Source: Alicyclobacillus pomorum DSM 14955 (lineage in GTDB: Bacteria > Bacillota > Bacilli > Alicyclobacillales > Alicyclobacillaceae). From it: a stretch of DNA of 64,000 nt. The position numbers and the translations under genes were made by a program. Of the stretch, positions 27,179 through 61,404 are shown piece after piece. Position 1 is the stretch's first letter. The number at the start of each line of letters is the position of its first letter. Under the pieces are notes generated by a model. The model was not told the origin of the DNA. It searched no databases and saw only the letters and a list, made by a program, of their open reading frames with translations. Location: assembly GCF_000472905.1 (NCBI RefSeq), contig NZ_AXAR01000005.1, positions 107,241 to 171,240 on the forward strand, read 5' to 3'.

Positions 27179-27198
27179 GAATGCGACAATTTCATCAC

Positions 27199-27340
27199 CA
27201 TCCTTCGGGGCAGGGTGAGACGGGAGACCGTCAATTCCCGACCGGTGGTAACGCATCACGCGAAGCCCACGAGCCGCTTTTGGCGGCACGAACTGGTGCA
27301 AATCCAGTGCCGACGGTATAGTCCGGATGAAAGAAGGAGC
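27199..27340 (+). ncRNA. FMN riboswitch (RFN element)
   Basis: The conserved RFN blocks appear in order: TCCTTCGGGGCAGGGTGAGA, TTCCCGACCGGTGGTAAC, GCCCACGAGCC, ACTGGTGCAAATCCAGTGCC, GACGGTATAGTCCGGATGAA, then AAGAAGG, which closes helix P1 with CCTTC. Bound FMN would favour the terminator at 27468 and switch off ribD-ribE-ribBA-ribH. The gap between aptamer and terminator (about 125 nt) can hold the alternative antiterminator pairing. Confidence 0.95.
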
Positions 27341-27467
27341 CAATCGCGCGGTATGATGGGGATCCGCGTGCGGATGAGCACATGCGTTCACCTGCCGCGC
27401 ACGACCAAATCGAACGACCAAACACAGTAGGAATATACTGTGTTCGGGTAGATCATGCCGAACTACG

Positions 27468-32300: not shown

Positions 32301-32939
32301 ATGCATTTAACTCTCCAGGAACGTGATAAATTGCTGATATTCGTCGCTGCTGAATTAGCACGAAAGCGGCTTGAGCGGGGTTTGAAATTGAATTATCCAG
32401 AAGCCGTCGCGCTGCTTTCATCCTATGTTACAGAGGAGGCGCGTGCAGGAAAATCGGTGGCGGATCTGATGGAAGATGCCAGGCATGTGTTATCCGAAGA
32501 CGATGTTATGCCAGGTGTCGCGGAAATGATCCATGAAGTTCAAGTGGAAGCCACATTCCCGGATGGAACAAAACTGGTCACTGTACATACTCCCATTCGT
32601 CCGAGCCGGAGTGATATCAATCCTGGGGAATACAAGGTCCTGGACAACGAAATTGATTTGCTGCCAAACAGGAAACGAATTATCAGAACTGTTTGTAACA
32701 TGGGGGACAGACCGATTCAAGTAGGATCGCATTACCACTTCTATGAAGTAAACAGTGCGCTGGAGTTTGAACGGGAAGGTACGATTGGGTATCGGCTCGA
32801 CATCCCATCTGGTACGGCGGTCCGATTTGAGCCGGGGGATATGCGGACAGTGACGTTGGTGGAATTCGGTGGACTGAAAGTTGTTCATGGGTTTTCAGGG
32901 GCCGTCAATGGAGGGGGTGGCGAAGCTGAGGATTCATAG
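32301..32939 (+). CDS. ureAB: Fused urease gamma-beta subunit
   Basis: 212 residues. Residues 1-100 are urease gamma ([58 protein letters not shown]). Residues 105-212 are urease beta ([46 protein letters not shown]). In most Bacillales these are separate genes ureA and ureB; the fusion resembles Helicobacter UreA in plan. It forms the structural scaffold of the urease trimer with UreC. The end overlaps ureC by 32 bp. Confidence 0.93.
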
Positions 32940-34635
32940 GTCAGCATACGCAGGGATGTACGGGCCGACCGTCGGAGACAGAATTCGATTGGCGGACACG
33001 GAACTGTGGATTGAAATTGAGCGGGATTTTACGGTGTACGGAGACGAATGCAAATTCGGTGGTGGAAAAACCGTTCGTGACGGAATGGGGCAACATCCTT
33101 ATGCGGTTCGTGCGGACGATGTGTTGGATACGGTCATCACGAATGCTGTCATTATCGATACCTGGGGCATTGTGAAAGCGGACATTGGGATTAAGAACGG
33201 AATCATCTCAGGTATCGGCAAAGCGGGAAATCCTCTGACGATGGATGGCGTCACACCTGGAATGGTCATTGGCGCCAGCACAGAGGTGATTGCAGGGGAA
33301 AACATGATTGTGACGGCGGGTGGCGTGGATTCACACATTCACTTTATCTCGCCACAACAAGCGGAAGTGGCACTGCAAAGCGGCGTGACCACGATGCTAG
33401 GGGGAGGCACCGGCCCGGCTACCGGGACATTGGCCACAACGTGTACACCGGGATCATGGCACATTCGACAGATGATGGAAGCCGCGGAGGCTCTTCCTGT
33501 AAATGTGGGCTTTCTTGGCAAAGGAAACTCCTCTGGGCCTCATGCCTTGTCTGAACAGATTGAGGCGGGAGCCATTGGATTGAAGTTACATGAGGACTGG
33601 GGAAGTACGCCCCACGCAATTGACACCTGTCTCAGAGTCGCAGACGACTATGATGTGCAGGTAGCCATTCACACCGACACTCTGAACGAGGGTGGGTTCG
33701 TGCAAGATACCATCCGTGCCATCAACGGTCGTACCATCCATACGTACCACACGGAAGGGGCGGGAGGAGGGCACGCGCCTGACATTATCAAAATCGCATC
33801 GATGCCGAATGTATTGCCTTCTTCTACGAATCCAACCAGGCCATATACCGTCAACACGGTAGATGAACATCTGGATATGCTGATGGTGTGTCATCACCTA
33901 GACCCCAAAATTCCGGAGGACATTGCCTTCGCAGATTCGAGAATCCGACCTGAAACCATTGGTGCGGAGGACATTCTTCACGACATGGGCGTGTTCAGTA
34001 TGATGAGTTCAGATTCGCAAGCCATGGGCCGCGTTGGCGAGGTCATTATTCGCACTTGGCAGACCGCCGACAAGATGAAACGGCAACGGGGGATCTTGGC
34101 TTCACAGGAACCCGTAGACAATTTCCGTGTGAAGCGATATGTGGCGAAATATACCATTAACCCGGCCGTCGCGCATGGCATTGCTGAGTACGTCGGTTCC
34201 ATTGAGGTGGGTAAGCTAGCGGATCTTGTCTTATGGAAACCGGCATTCTTCGGCGTGAAACCGGAGCTTGTGCTGAAGGGCGGTGCCATCGCCCTTGCAA
34301 ACATGGGCGATCCGAACGCGTCCATTCCAACCCCTCAGCCGATGTTCTACCGTCCGATGTTTGGGCAACAAGGGAGCGCTCGATTCACCAATGCCATCAT
34401 GTTCACGTCCCAGGCTGCTCTAGCGTTGGGTACGGTGTCTCAGTACGCTTTACAAAAGCGCGTTCTTCCTGTTCGGAATTGTCGTTCAATTAATAAGCAC
34501 TCCATGGTGCATAACGATGCCATGCCGAACATTGAGGTCGATCCCATGACTTACAAGGTAATCGCAGACGGTGAACTGCTGACCTGCGAACCAGCGGAAG
34601 TTTTGCCTTTAGCGCAACGATACTTTCTATTTTAG
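32908..34635 (+). CDS. ureC: Urease alpha (catalytic) subunit
   Basis: 575 residues. The nickel ligands and carbamylated lysine are present: [29 protein letters not shown] (Lys), [29 protein letters not shown]. The flap cysteine lies in MVCHHLD. It hydrolyses urea to ammonia and carbamate. I place the start at ATG 32908 (AGGGG 6 bp upstream), inside the end of ureAB, implying translational coupling. Length and motifs argue for an active enzyme. Confidence 0.96.
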
Positions 34636-42857: not shown

Positions 42858-43150
42858 ATTAAAAAAACTCGCCCCCATGTGAAGGGGCGAGTTTGATCCC
42901 GCTGTACCACCCAACTTAGCGCGTCCATCGCTGGCGCGCTCCATCTGCCGGATCCAAAGGTGCTCCTTGAACCAAGCGGTCACCAGTGAATCCGCCTCTC
43001 TATAACGGGAGAGTACCGTCCTGCATTACTGCCCAGTCCACACGTTTCGTGCAAGACCGGGGTTGTACAGGCACCTCCAAGGGGATATTCGTTACCGAAC
43101 CTGTGTGGGTTTCCACCTGTCCCCACTCTCTGTGACAGGTCACCGGAAAC
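42858..43150 (-). ncRNA. T-box leader of ileS
   Basis: Read on the minus strand: AGAGAG kink-turn region (about 43130), GGTGGAAACC, then CGAATATCCCCTTGGAG, where AUC (43086-43084) or the overlapping AUA is the likely Ile specifier. GACGG follows, then the T-box sequence AAGTTGGGTGGTACAGCG (43904 to 42918 region, core GGGTGGTAC at 42912-42904). The terminator has an 11-bp stem CTCGCCCC/GGGGCGAG (42865-42894) and seven T. Uncharged tRNA-Ile would pair with the specifier and the T-box bulge and stabilise the antiterminator. Confidence 0.92.
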
Positions 43151-43475
43151 TACTCGACCTTTTCAACGGTTTATGCCACGATATATGCCAATCAGTGTAT
43201 CAAAAACTTGACCTGTGCTCAAGAGGGACGGGCTCGTCTCACAGGTGGCCGAACGGGGGAGAACCCAACCACCGTGCGCAGCCAACACGATGGATTGACA
43301 GGTATGTATATTCAAAAATGGTAAATATATTCCTTCTCTTTCGGCCAATCTCCATGAAATTGTCAGGAAACGTTCGGAAAGTACCCCTACATATCATGGT
43401 CGACAACACGTACTATGTCCATGGTGGCCAATTTCGCGCCTTCGGTTCACGTCTCAGACATGAGGTGACAAAAAC
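43151..43475. other. Divergent promoter region between ileS leader and the penicillin-binding protein
   Basis: About 325 bp. A TTGACA near 43295 points towards the penicillin-binding protein, but no well-spaced -10 could be fixed. Open frames here are antisense to the T-box leader and have no supported start. Confidence 0.35.
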
Positions 43476-47957: not shown

Positions 47958-48005
47958 GAAGGGGCTGCCCTTAAGTGCGCTTGGCACTTTTGGGACAGCC
48001 CCTTC
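47958..48005. terminator. Hairpin-repeat terminator, family 2 copy 1
   Basis: GAAGGGGCTG-CCC ... GGG-A-CAGCCCCTTC encloses an inner AAGTGC/GCACTT stem. It lies between two convergent genes. Its internal sequence GGGCTGCCCTTAAGTG...CACTTTTGGGAC is repeated at 59.2 kb in reverse orientation. Confidence 0.75.
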
Positions 48006-56854: not shown

Positions 56855-58024
56855 ATGGCCGTGACCTTGACGAGCACGCTGACAGAGGAACTGACTCTGT
56901 TTCGACGGACGTTGCATCAGCATCCAGAACTCAGCCTGGAGGAGTACGAAACGACCCGGCGAATTCGGGCGTTCCTGGACAAGCACGGCATTGAGCAACT
57001 CGATTATCCGCTGGAGACTGGCGTGCTGGCCGTCGTGCGTGGCAAGCAACCCGGTCCTTGTGTCGCCGTGCGAGCGGACATCGACGCACTCCCGATTCAC
57101 GAAGAAACAGGCCTGCCGTACGCGTCCCAAGTGGCCGGAAAGATGCATGCGTGTGGACACGACTTTCACACCGCTTGTGCGCTGGGGGCTGCTGTGCTGG
57201 CCAAGACAGTCGCCGACAGTGACGCATCGTTTGTCGGTTCCATCCTGTTTGTCTTTCAACCGGCAGAAGAAGCCGGGGTCGGTGCGAACATGGTGTATGA
57301 TACAGGTGTGTTCCAGGACTTCCAGGTGGGCGCCATCATCGGAGAGCACAACAACCCGCACCTCGAGTTCGGGAAAATTGGCGTGAAATCGGGCCCGTTG
57401 ATGGGGAGTGTCGACGAGTTCCGGATTGTCATCAAGGGCGTTGGCGGACATGCTGCGATACCGCATCTGGCGGTGGATCCGATTCTCGTCGGCGCAAACA
57501 TTGTCGCCGGCCTCCAACACGTTGTGAGTCGAGCCGTGTCTCCGCTCGATTCGGTGGTTGTCACCGTCGGGCAGTTCAATGCGGGAACCGCCCGCAACGT
57601 CATTCCGCCGCACGCGGTTCTGGAAGGTACAGTGCGTTGTCTCCAGCCAGAGGTTCAAGACTTGGTTGAACGGCGCTTTACGGAGTTTGTGCACGACACA
57701 GCCAAAGCGTACGGGGCCAAGGCGGAGGTGGAATACGAACGTCAGCTCCCCGTTGTCGTCAACGATGAAGCGGTCGCCTCCGTGGTTTGGGACAGCGCAG
57801 TGAAGGTAGTTGGCGCCGACAACGTGGTGGTGGCTACCCCTACGCTGGGAGGCGAGGATTTCGCACAGTATCAGCAACACCTGCCGGGTTGTTTCTTCTG
57901 GGTTGGGACAGGCAAGCGGTACGGTTGGCACCATCCTTCCTTCGACGTGGATGAACGCATGATTTCCACTACCAGTCAGCTGTTTGTGGAAGCAGCGCTG
58001 GAGTGGTTACGGCGTAACGCGTAA
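56855..58024 (+). CDS. M20D amidohydrolase (hippurate hydrolase / N-acyl amino acid amidohydrolase type)
   Basis: 389 residues. Metal ligands are in GKMHACGHDFHTACALGAA and FQPAEEAGVGANM (Glu). The lid domain carries IKGVGGHAAIPHLAVDPI. The end has TLGGEDFAQYQQHLPGCFFWVG. Members remove acyl groups from amino acids. SD GGAGAAGGAG precedes ATG 56855. It lies between the azl regulator and cysK, 31 bp before the latter; a role in N-acetylcysteine or other sulfur salvage is conceivable from that neighbour only. Confidence 0.9.
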   Translation: MAVTLTSTLTEELTLFRRTLHQHPELSLEEYETTRRIRAFLDKHGIEQLDYPLETGVLAVVRGKQPGPCVAVRADIDALPIHEETGLPYASQVAGKMHACGHDFHTACALGAAVLAKTVADSDASFVGSILFVFQPAEEAGVGANMVYDTGVFQDFQVGAIIGEHNNPHLEFGKIGVKSGPLMGSVDEFRIVIKGVGGHAAIPHLAVDPILVGANIVAGLQHVVSRAVSPLDSVVVTVGQFNAGTARNVIPPHAVLEGTVRCLQPEVQDLVERRFTEFVHDTAKAYGAKAEVEYERQLPVVVNDEAVASVVWDSAVKVVGADNVVVATPTLGGEDFAQYQQHLPGCFFWVGTGKRYGWHHPSFDVDERMISTTSQLFVEAALEWLRRNA

Positions 58025-58055
58025 GAGAATTCCTTTTGATGTGGAGAGATAGACC

Positions 58056-58979
58056 ATGAAAATTGCGTCGTCAGTGCTTGATTTGATTGGAAATACGCCG
58101 ATTGTCAGGCTCAATCGGATTCCAGATCCGAACGGAGCCTCTGTCTATATGAAGTTGGAATCGTTTAACCCAGGGGGCAGTGTAAAGGACAGAGCAGCCT
58201 ATCAGATGATTCTACAAGCGGAACAAGAGGGGAAGCTGCGGCCGGGACAAACCACTGTCATCGAACCGACGTCTGGCAATACAGGCATCGGTCTCGCCAT
58301 GGTGTGTGCGGCGCGCGGTTATCGCTGCATCATCACCATGCCGGACAACGCAACAGAAGAGCGGGTGAAGATCCTCAAGGCCTACGGGGCGGAGGTGTAC
58401 TTAACACCGGCTGCCCTGCGCATGCAAGGCGCCATCGACGAGGCCATCCGCATCTCGGAGTCGATAGAGGACAGTTTCATTCCGATGCAATTTGAAAATC
58501 CGGCGAATCCCGATGCGCACCGCGGGACGACAGCGCTCGAGATCATCGACGCGTTTGATGGTCAGCTGGACGTGTTCTGCTTGACAGCAGGAACGGGCGG
58601 AACGGTCACAGGAACCGGTGAAGTCTTGAAGGAGAGAATCCCAGGGCTGAAGATTTTCGTGGTGGAGCCGGCGGGATCGCCCGTGTTGTCGGGAGGTAAA
58701 CCAGGGCCTCACAAGATTCCGGGGACAGGGCCAGGGTTCATTCCCAAGGTGCTGAATCGGGACATTTACGACGACATTTTGTTGATTCAGGACGAGGATG
58801 CTGAAACGATGGCTCGGCGGTTGGCGGCAGAAGAAGGCATTCTGGTCGGTACCTCAAGTGCGGCCTCGGCACACTTCGCCGTGGAAATTGCGAGAACACT
58901 GCCGAAAGAAGCGCGTGTTCTGTGCATGGCGCCGGACACGGGAGAGCGGTACTTGTCTTCAGACCTGTTTCCGAGATGA
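58056..58979 (+). CDS. cysK: Cysteine synthase (O-acetylserine sulfhydrylase)
   Basis: 307 residues. PLP lysine in NPGGSVKDRAAYQM, substrate loop PTSGNTGIGLAMVCAARGY, and the phosphate-binding TAGTGGTVTGTGEVL. It joins sulfide to O-acetylserine. The partner acetyltransferase is encoded separately at 23.8 kb. It starts 31 bp after the amidohydrolase stop and could share its transcript. Confidence 0.95.
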   Translation: MKIASSVLDLIGNTPIVRLNRIPDPNGASVYMKLESFNPGGSVKDRAAYQMILQAEQEGKLRPGQTTVIEPTSGNTGIGLAMVCAARGYRCIITMPDNATEERVKILKAYGAEVYLTPAALRMQGAIDEAIRISESIEDSFIPMQFENPANPDAHRGTTALEIIDAFDGQLDVFCLTAGTGGTVTGTGEVLKERIPGLKIFVVEPAGSPVLSGGKPGPHKIPGTGPGFIPKVLNRDIYDDILLIQDEDAETMARRLAAEEGILVGTSSAASAHFAVEIARTLPKEARVLCMAPDTGERYLSSDLFPR

Positions 58980-58989
58980 CTTCTCCGTC

Positions 58990-59180
58990 TGCTAAAATAT
59001 GTATTTTAAAAATAGAGAATGCTTACGTTGTACTTAAAAAAAGATAGGCCAAAAGGCCCATGCAAAGACGCGGCTGGTCGCCTTATACTGTTGGTGTGTA
59101 GCAGCGACCTACACTGTACCAATAACCCCTATATTCGCGTTTTTCACGCACCGCCCGATGAAAGGGGCGGATATTTTTTT
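58990..59180 (+). ncRNA. Unassigned structured RNA ending in a terminator, no gene behind it
   Basis: After an AT-rich segment, GGCC-AAAA-GGCC (59047-59058) forms a small hairpin. The single-stranded ATGCAAAGACGCGGCT follows, then a long hairpin closed by GGTCGC/GCGACC (59076-59108 region). Next comes TACACTGTACC, then a terminator with CCGCCC/GGGCGG stem (59151-59170) and ATATTTTTTT. The layout is that of a riboswitch or small RNA. Downstream there is only a second terminator and a convergent gene. It may be a 3' end-derived RNA of cysK or an independent sRNA. No family match was certain. Confidence 0.4.
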
Positions 59181-59212
59181 GATGATGCGGGTGCGGAGGA
59201 GAGACGTATACA

Positions 59213-59254
59213 AGGGGCCGTCCCAAAAGTGCGAAAACACTTAGGGCAGCCCTA
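59213..59254. terminator. Hairpin-repeat terminator, family 2 copy 2
   Basis: Its reverse strand carries GGGCTGCCCTAAGTG, then CACTTTTGGGACGGCCCC, nearly the same as the element at 47958-48005. It forms an outer GGGCCGTCCC/GGGCAGCCC stem and an inner AAGTG/CACTT stem. It lies directly after the stop of the sigma-54 activator gene. Confidence 0.7.
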
Positions 59255-59257
59255 TGG

Positions 59258-61378
59258 TCATCGATTCTGTTTCGCGATATTCCTGTACTTTCGGCTTACC
59301 GACGACTGGCTGATGCCGAGAGCCTCGGCGGCCCTGCTGGTAGTACCGTATTTTGCCATAGCCAGTGCAATCAGCTCCGCTTCCACCTGTGAAATCGCGT
59401 CTTTGAGCGGGATGACCTGTTCAAAGCGCGATGGCGAAGGAGTACGTCCGTGGCTAGAGTGTCGCTGTGTCTTCTGGCTGTTCATCAGGACGTTCTCGAC
59501 GACCAGAGCGTCAATCACTTCCCCGTCGTTTTTAATCGCCATTCGCTGAACCACGTTTTGAAGCTCACGTACATTTCCCGGAAATTCATACGCTTCCAGC
59601 AACTCGATGGCGGAACGTGAAAATCGGAGGTTTCGCTGATATCTCTGATTGAATTGGTGCAGGAAGTGGTTCGCCAGGACAGCAATGTCTTCCTTGCGCT
59701 CTCTCAGGGGCGGTACTTCAATGGGGAATACGTTGATGCGATAATACAAGTCTGCGCGAAATTCTCCCTTGTTGACCAACTCCACAAGAGACCGGTTGGC
59801 TGCGGCGATGATTTGGACGTCGAATTTTACGGGCGTTGTACCGCCAACCGGATACACTTCCCGTTCCTGAATCGCTCGTAGGAGTTTGCTCTGAATCCCG
59901 AATGGGAGATCCGAAATTTCATCCAGGAACAAGGTACCCTTGTGAGCTTTCACAAACAGGCCGATTTTTCCATCTTGCTTCGCACCGGAAAATGCGCCTC
60001 TTTCATATCCAAAGAGTTCGCTCTCGAGCAAAGCTTCGGGGATGGCGGCACAGTTGATCTTCACAAATGGCTGATGGCGGCGCTCACTGAGCGAGTGAAT
60101 CGCGTTGGCGATAATCTCTTTCCCCACGCCCGATTCCCCGGTCAGTAGAACCGTGGTGGAAAACTGTGCAACTCGCTCAGCTTCTCGCATGACTTCGTGC
60201 ATTGCGGTGCTCACGTAGATGGGGACCGTGCCAGTGCGTTGCGTGACGCGCTGGCGGAGTCCCTCCAGTTCGCGGCGGTAATCCTCACTCTGTTTGCGCG
60301 TTCTCTCGAGCTCGCTTTGCAGTCTTGAGACTTCGGTCAAATCCCGCGAAGCGACCACAATCCGTTCCAGTTTTCCCTTCTTCGTGAAGATGGGATTTCC
60401 AGCACAAACCATGGGGTACTCGCTTTCGTTGTGCATGAGGGAGACCTTCCGTCGTGTGCTCTGCACTTCGCGGATGACCTGGCAGACGAGTGCTCCGCAC
60501 GCATTGTACTTCAAAATCTCCTCGCCAATCAGTTCGTGGGGAGGTTGTTTCCAATGCGCGGCGATGTAGTGTTGGCTTGCCCGCAGCAACTTACCTTCGG
60601 CGTCGACCACGATGATTTCGTCGTATATGGTCGACAAAATGGCCTCCAAGTCTTGATTCAGTTGACGAACGGAATCCAATTCCAGGGCCATGGATTCGAC
60701 AGACGGGAGGTCTTGTAAAACCAGTGCAACGCCCGAAATTGAATTGTTGTTGACGAGAGGGACAAAGTCCACCAGGAGTGCAGGTTGACCGTTTTTCGCC
60801 GTTATCACCTGGTTGAGCAGCGCGTTGTGTGTGTTTTGCACATACTGGAAGAATCGTGAGCCGAGCAGGTCGTTCATGCGGATGCGGCCCAAATCGGATT
60901 CGGTCATGCGAAGCATTCGCAGGGCTTCTTTGTTGCTATTCACCACTGCATAGTTCAGGTCCACAATCATAAGCCCGCGGGGGATGGACGAAAACAGCTT
61001 CCGAAGCCAGGCGACGTCGCTGTTTGGTTCGGCAGACACCATCGTCAGGAGAAAATCTTCGCGCAGAATGTACTTCAGGCCGGTGTCGGTGCTGACCAAC
61101 GTCACTTCGTCGGCCAACACGTCGAGCGCCTGAGCGGTCAGTTCATCCAAGGACACAACGCGCAGAGGCGGACCGGTGATGAGCGGTTCCAGCGACCACT
61201 CTTCTCTCGGTCCCTGCATCGCCAGCAATAGCGCGAAGCTCTTCACAGGGAAGAGTTTGTCCTGCTGCGCCATGAACACAACCGTATGGTCCTCCACGCG
61301 AATGCGCTCGCATGCCTCGTCGAGGTTTGTGGATTCGTCAATGACGACGGGATCTCGAAGATAGGTTGACAAATTCAA
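59258..61378 (-). CDS. Sigma-54-dependent activator with CBS-like, two PAS, AAA+ and Fis domains
   Basis: 706 residues from TTG 61378 (AAGGAG 11 bp upstream); GTG 61390 overlaps the SD. Order: CBS-like segment (1-125), PAS 1 (about 130-240), PAS 2 (about 245-360), coiled coil, AAA+ (about 395-625) with Walker A LLTGESGVGKE, sigma-54 contact loop ERGAFSGA and LFLDEISDLP, then a Fis-type HTH (GTTSRAAEALGISQSSVSRKYR). The contact loop has Ser in place of Thr of GAFTGA. It resembles RocR-class activators and faces a sigma-54 promoter, so it should switch on agmatinase and putrescine aminotransferase. The effector is unknown. Confidence 0.92.
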   Translation of the reverse strand: MNLSTYLRDPVVIDESTNLDEACERIRVEDHTVVFMAQQDKLFPVKSFALLLAMQGPREEWSLEPLITGPPLRVVSLDELTAQALDVLADEVTLVSTDTGLKYILREDFLLTMVSAEPNSDVAWLRKLFSSIPRGLMIVDLNYAVVNSNKEALRMLRMTESDLGRIRMNDLLGSRFFQYVQNTHNALLNQVITAKNGQPALLVDFVPLVNNNSISGVALVLQDLPSVESMALELDSVRQLNQDLEAILSTIYDEIIVVDAEGKLLRASQHYIAAHWKQPPHELIGEEILKYNACGALVCQVIREVQSTRRKVSLMHNESEYPMVCAGNPIFTKKGKLERIVVASRDLTEVSRLQSELERTRKQSEDYRRELEGLRQRVTQRTGTVPIYVSTAMHEVMREAERVAQFSTTVLLTGESGVGKEIIANAIHSLSERRHQPFVKINCAAIPEALLESELFGYERGAFSGAKQDGKIGLFVKAHKGTLFLDEISDLPFGIQSKLLRAIQEREVYPVGGTTPVKFDVQIIAAANRSLVELVNKGEFRADLYYRINVFPIEVPPLRERKEDIAVLANHFLHQFNQRYQRNLRFSRSAIELLEAYEFPGNVRELQNVVQRMAIKNDGEVIDALVVENVLMNSQKTQRHSSHGRTPSPSRFEQVIPLKDAISQVEAELIALAMAKYGTTSRAAEALGISQSSVSRKYRNIAKQNR

Positions 61379-61404
61379 TCGCGAAAACACTCCTTATTCA
61401 TCCG

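Follow-up and report, generated by a model that had tools for sequence, protein, structure and literature searches.

Genes and features downstream of cysK

In the window, a stretch of 64,000 nucleotides from the genome of Alicyclobacillus pomorum DSM 14955, the cysteine synthase gene cysK is followed by an intergenic region that ends at a convergent gene for a sigma-54 activator (Table 1). We found no convincing ORF between these two genes, and a search of positions 57900-59400 gave no two-hexamer sigma-70 promoter and a single + strand terminator, the hairpin that we call SL3. The initial annotation of this region had recognised that intrinsic terminator and its T tract, and it was also right that nothing co-directional lies close 3' of the stretch it marked, where we find only the convergent activator gene. 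Folded by itself, the whole marked stretch (58990-59180) hardly exceeds its shuffles (z of -1.68 and -0.72), and with a plain fold so unremarkable no claim could be based on one sequence. The locus is real, but the first reading of it was mistaken. Next to the end of the convergent gene (59212-59250, + strand) there is also a 40-bp stretch with an inverted copy of 85% identity some 11 kb away, at about 47964-48004 on the - strand, and this repeat may be a terminator-like element.

Table 1. Features of the cysK 3' flank, in window coordinates
Feature	Position	Strand	Evidence and remarks
cysK, cysteine synthase A	58056..58979	+	TIGR01139, 414.3 bits against a cut-off of 350.95; constant 5' neighbour
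18-bp dyad ATAGGCC-AAAA-GGCCCAT (7-4-7), putative activator operator	59044..59061	.	in 28/28 loci
-10 box TATACT, without a good -35 hexamer	59084..59089	+	TAYACT at a fixed distance in 28/28 loci
Predicted sRNA, ~85 nt	about 59096-59180	+	start placed by the -10 box and end by the terminator; matches to models R1 and R2
SL1, GUGUAG/CUACAC	59096..59114	+	invariant where present; loop 4-11 nt
Single-stranded C-rich linker UGUACCAAUAACCCC, putative seed	59115..59129	+	most of 20 folded loci leave it unpaired
SL2	59137..59149	+	both-side changes in 4/4 pairs; 81.4% of cells paired
SL3, intrinsic terminator with T tract	59151..59180 (hairpin 59151-59170)	+	both-side changes in 6/6 pairs; 100% of cells paired
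sigma-54-activator gene	59258-61390		convergent

Distribution among genomes

When 61 genomes were searched at the DNA level, the stretch turned up in one member of the same genus (G001) and in four genomes of three other genera (G002, G017, G003 and G010), and in these five relatives too it adjoins the 3' side of cysK; a 24-bp match was present in G060, which belongs to another family. Model R1, made from two sequences, recovered the other given loci and matched 11 of the 41 family genomes, two of them weakly. At the weak matches, in G009 and G032, there is no RNA core; G032 has a good match to model R2 at a different place, and G009 has none. R2, made from 20 loci, finds a single copy in 27 of the 41 Alicyclobacillaceae genomes, with E-values from 1.3e-15 to 1.7e-7 that are roughly calibrated and come partly from the same genomes as the 20 model-building loci, and among 18 sister-family genomes it has no match. 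Filtering in these multi-genome searches was stricter, and weak copies may have escaped them.

A search for the dyad and TAYACT as a pattern, across genome contigs described as covering 84,980 species, returned 17 stretches. Fourteen belong to Alicyclobacillaceae, namely A. contaminans, fastidiosus, suci, acidiphilus, hesperidum and sacchari, followed by mali, sendaiensis, fructus, macrosporangiidus, mengziensis, tengchongensis and two others; the three from outside the family (L062, L064 and L070) have neither the RNA nor the cysK motif. Two apparent duplicates (L060 of L005, L074 of L004) were omitted from the locus check. The comparison comprises 28 loci, which are 27 genomes and one record apparently identical to one of them (L061 and L208, which share an R2 score), with 27 distinct rows. 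The C-terminal motif of cysK lies upstream in 27 of the 28; the one remaining locus stands at the edge of a contig, and its twin carries the motif. Judged by these alignments and model matches, conservation of the RNA is far above chance, and the predicted sRNA has been found so far only in Alicyclobacillaceae.

An operator-like dyad and a predicted promoter

The region had been described as two hairpins flanking a linker. The upstream one is a palindrome that could indeed form a hairpin (59044-59061); the downstream one, GGTCGC at 59076-59081 with GCGACC at 59104-59109, holds the TATACT box in its loop and is not conserved, its 5' arm being present in 1 of 20 loci, that of the window. The linker ATGCAAAGACGCGG, which had looked conserved, is kept no further than its opening AT, mostly ATG, and these bases are part of the palindrome. 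The conserved RNA itself sits further 3', at about 59096-59180.

The palindrome follows the consensus A-Y-R-G-G-N-C-N4-G-N-C-Y-Y-A-T in all 28 loci, and in all 28 TAYACT stands 20-21 nt past the G/A that flanks it (ATG/ATA). Across the 28 loci, which hold 17 distinct sequences of the dyad, pairing is possible in just 10 loci at positions 3/16 and in 20 at 6/13, and the changes are not compensated, as they should be in a hairpin. At the remaining positions, 0/19 excepted, the bases pair in 27-28 loci (16 of the paired loci at position 4/15 only as G-T), and these positions are so nearly invariant that they give no argument for an RNA stem. From this pattern of substitutions the dyad is most likely a protein-binding site in DNA. 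We rejected an RNA hairpin as its main reading, given the uncompensated arms and the presence of the same dyad ahead of other genes, and likewise a minus-strand terminator, as which it had been listed (terminator-like); the T run beside it shrinks in homologues, and direct reading of G010 shows it reduced to TCTTCACAA. A TACACT inside SL1 was also considered as the -10 box and set aside, as it is missing from the g11 genomes, whereas TAYACT keeps its fixed distance from the dyad. A palindromic operator can thus pass for an RNA hairpin when one sequence alone is read.

Structure and covariation of the RNA

Plain MAFFT alignments misplaced the stems, and we therefore used model-guided alignments (A8 and A10), which lean towards the model. 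On such an alignment 10 of the 16 structure pairs change on both sides, compared with 5.7 in shuffles, and 95.4% of the alignment cells are paired, compared with 80.8%; none of 500 shuffles reaches the observed value in any of five measures of pairing and covariation, and sliding the partners by 1-3 columns lowers pairing to 22.5-52.3%. RNAalifold applied to A8 recovered SL1 and SL3 and missed SL2. The changes on both sides fall in SL2 and SL3, and in SL1 they amount to 0 of 6 pairs. SL1 is absent from three of the 27 distinct rows (the three g11 genomes), and we rejected it as a DNA operator because the loop can be as short as 4 nt or as long as 11, unlike the centre of a protein-binding dyad. 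In the linker, UGUAC is conserved and the C-run differs between clades, so that CUACACUGUACCUA is steadier across clades than the C-run. ACCCC is unpaired in the window RNA, as the C-rich linker is in the homologues (20 loci folded).

Proposed function and competing readings

The initial annotation had offered an sRNA as an alternative, and the covarying stems among homologues speak for it. We favour an independent gene for a trans-acting, C-rich sRNA in the 3' flank of cysK, with an activator-dependent promoter and a seed that pairs with mRNAs, and give this reading a probability of about 0.6. From the architecture and its conservation, the covariation in SL2 and SL3, and the dyad with its -10 box here and at promoters of relatives, we infer transcription, the family of the activator, seed pairing and repression as follows. 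An activator, probably a response regulator of the NarL/LuxR type, would bind the 7-4-7 dyad, whose centre is near -43.5, and recruit RNA polymerase to the TATACT promoter, which has no good -35 box; transcription from near 59096 to SL3 would then yield an RNA of ~85 nt, and cysK transcripts that read through should end at SL3 as well. SL1 may shield or present the 5' end of the RNA, while the unpaired C-rich linker would pair with the G-rich ribosome-binding sites of mRNAs and block their translation. By analogy with known C-rich sRNAs, silencing of mRNAs by pairing is probably the mode of action. A search for linker-complementary sites in eight genomes gave 127, against 199 in a reversed control, with some of the 127 being the sRNA gene itself, and inspection of 30 candidate target loci revealed no convincing site; given these two results, the target candidates were dropped.

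The absence of target-site enrichment speaks for an sRNA that acts on a protein, as a sponge or mimic, instead of on mRNAs, and so does the invariant CUACACUGUACCUA, which is more than a C-run. An unpaired C-rich linker is, however, the usual sRNA seed in related bacteria according to the excerpts of PMC4132741 and PMC4409812, and the RNA has no Rfam match at the gathering level and so none to 6S or CsrB-type families; we regard action on a protein as improbable. A somewhat better case, though still an unlikely one, can be made for a cysK 3'-UTR element, consisting either of terminator and stability stems or of an sRNA processed from cysK mRNA, with no promoter of its own. The initial annotation had proposed release from the cysK 3' region, and this stands insofar as the RNA is constantly found behind cysK and holds the sole + strand terminator of 57900-59400. 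It fails to account for the conserved -10 box and dyad that the RNA has for itself: both elements and their 20-21 nt spacing are kept in 28 of 28 loci, a degree of conservation for which a UTR alone has no use, and the same pair stands ahead of other genes in relatives. The RNA is thus probably not merely a tail of cysK.

Far less probable than either is the reading with which the locus had been introduced, that of a riboswitch or leader resembling c-di-GMP-I aptamers. In common with that riboswitch (RF01051) the locus has a GCAAAG string flanked by possible hairpins on both sides, but neither the string nor the second hairpin is conserved, RF01051 gives no match at the gathering level or even at E<=10, and there is no regulated gene, the terminator being followed by a convergent gene with nothing co-directional close downstream. 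Rfam at the gathering level names no family in the stretch or in 18 homologous loci, and at E<=10 the only matches are sub-threshold ones to ar9 and mir-3473. The RNA gene has its own predicted switchable promoter, which is why we do not take it for a riboswitch. We give equally little credence to a short protein-coding gene: a mechanical ORF of 176 aa (59019-59549) is open in the window, yet it spans the terminator and runs against the conserved activator gene, it is kept in no frame in A. contaminans, and 2-nt gaps break the frame.

Comparison with known regulatory RNAs and operators

We take an intrinsic terminator to be common to the window RNA and to RoxS/RsaE of Bacillus and Staphylococcus. 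RoxS/RsaE binds Shine-Dalgarno sequences through C-rich unpaired regions and is controlled by response regulators (ResD/SrrA) at a conserved promoter site, according to the excerpts of PMC4409812. The window RNA resembles it in its C-rich unpaired region and in the conservation of a promoter site, and differs from it in sequence, in the kind of operator and in having no Rfam match. LhrC, as described in the excerpted text of PMC4132741, also binds Shine-Dalgarno sequences through C-rich unpaired regions, with three UCCC motifs, and is governed by a two-component system responsive to envelope stress. LhrC1-5 of Listeria and the window RNA are alike as short C-rich sRNAs, and relatives of the window genome have a second putative C-rich sRNA that bears the dyad. 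Unlike LhrC1-5, the window RNA has one unpaired ACCCC run and occurs in single copy, and the LisR site, so far as the excerpts of PMC4132741 present it, differs from the dyad.

The dyad matches the consensus of the DosR box at 8-13 of 14 positions, where shuffles average 4.0. The CesR/LiaR motif is given in excerpts of PMC4447274 as TCAGHCTnnAGDCTGA with an adjacent A-run, and LiaR of S. mutans is said there to have required a 25-bp motif; the dyad matches that motif, as excerpted, at 8-11 of 14 positions, against an average of 4.5 in shuffles. These operators and the dyad are inverted repeats with a 4-bp centre, and an A-run lies alongside as in the excerpted account of LiaR/CesR, but the outer bases of the dyad are unlike both and the fit is not a full one. 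A response regulator of the NarL type is our best guess for the protein that would occupy the dyad; likeness to response-regulator boxes does not identify it.

The same dyad at other promoters

Over 41 genomes, the dyad followed 19-21 nt on by a -10-like box occurs in 44 places, compared with 12 in a reversed control. We assign 25 of these to the sRNA gene by our own count. Six of the other 19 represent one promoter type, of which five examples were examined (L108, L109, L111, L114 and L157); the protein behind L109, the only one of this type submitted to Pfam, matches VanZ at 2.5e-11. Three more (L152-L154) precede a second putative sRNA, one (in G029) precedes a putative lipoprotein gene, and the remaining nine are unexplained, at about the level of the control. 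When one mismatch in the dyad was allowed, further promoters of putative lipoprotein genes appeared near ftsH and hslO. The gene near these promoters we take to be FtsH, and we label the proteins lipoproteins on the assumption that their lipobox-like start indicates as much; three of them gave no Pfam match. In one genus of relatives the dyad, with a -10-like box some 20 bp away, is seen both before VanZ-like genes (the five examples named above) and before putative lipoprotein genes (L107, L110, L112 and L113). The window's own genome has a single copy of the dyad, and near-matches to it number 16 there against 13 in the control, which is no excess, so a regulon is visible only in relatives.

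The second putative sRNA of the relatives is also C-rich, with AACCCYUWACCCC near its start and a terminator at its end. In 12 loci that were analysed, out of 23 pattern matches, this combination (AACCCYTWACCCC and a terminator) lies behind a cysE-like gene 10 times. The gene was named from a shared C-terminal motif, and the one protein that was scored falls under both cut-offs (152.5 bits against 210.65 for cysE, and 149.9 against 150 for EpsC). Direct reading of the g8, g9, g10 and g11 genomes shows two tandem dyads 23 bp apart at this sRNA. Rfam gives nothing for L152-L154 at E<=1, and searches of the window's own genome did not find the second putative sRNA. Its occurrences are at L152-L154, L168-L170, L172, L174, L175 and L182-L187, for example near position 1501 on the - strand of L183.

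Taken together with the similar seeds (A)CCUAACCCC and AACCCUUUACCCC behind cysK and the cysE-like gene, these promoters suggest, tentatively and at rather long odds, a two-sRNA regulon in Alicyclobacillaceae, in which one NarL-type regulator responding to the envelope or to redox state would switch on two unrelated C-rich sRNAs, each placed behind one of the two cysteine-synthesis genes, and would also control envelope genes (VanZ-like genes and lipoproteins). If this is true, the regulon would link the supply of thiols with the response to envelope stress by way of a pair of RNAs.

Novelty and other RNAs in the window

The RNA appears, from the comparisons made here, to be an undescribed family of an ordinary kind, a C-rich sRNA gene, with an unusually clear operator; in a narrow check of literature on Alicyclobacillus and small RNA, nothing among the papers listed looks like a report of it. 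Alicyclobacillus matters to the fruit juice industry, as excerpts of PMC8430261 relate. Now that the RNA is defined, the operator seen to be conserved and a set of genes proposed as co-regulated, the regulator and the targets are directly testable.

Rfam recognises other elements in the window. A match to 5_ureB_sRNA (70.8 bits, 33071-33364, - strand) is antisense to an ORF at 32881-34299 that we take to encode the alpha subunit of urease, and it probably reflects conservation of coding sequence rather than an RNA. A T-box leader at 42880-43175 on the - strand is followed by an ORF that is presumably for an isoleucyl-tRNA synthetase-like protein, and an FMN riboswitch lies at 27197-27342 on the + strand.
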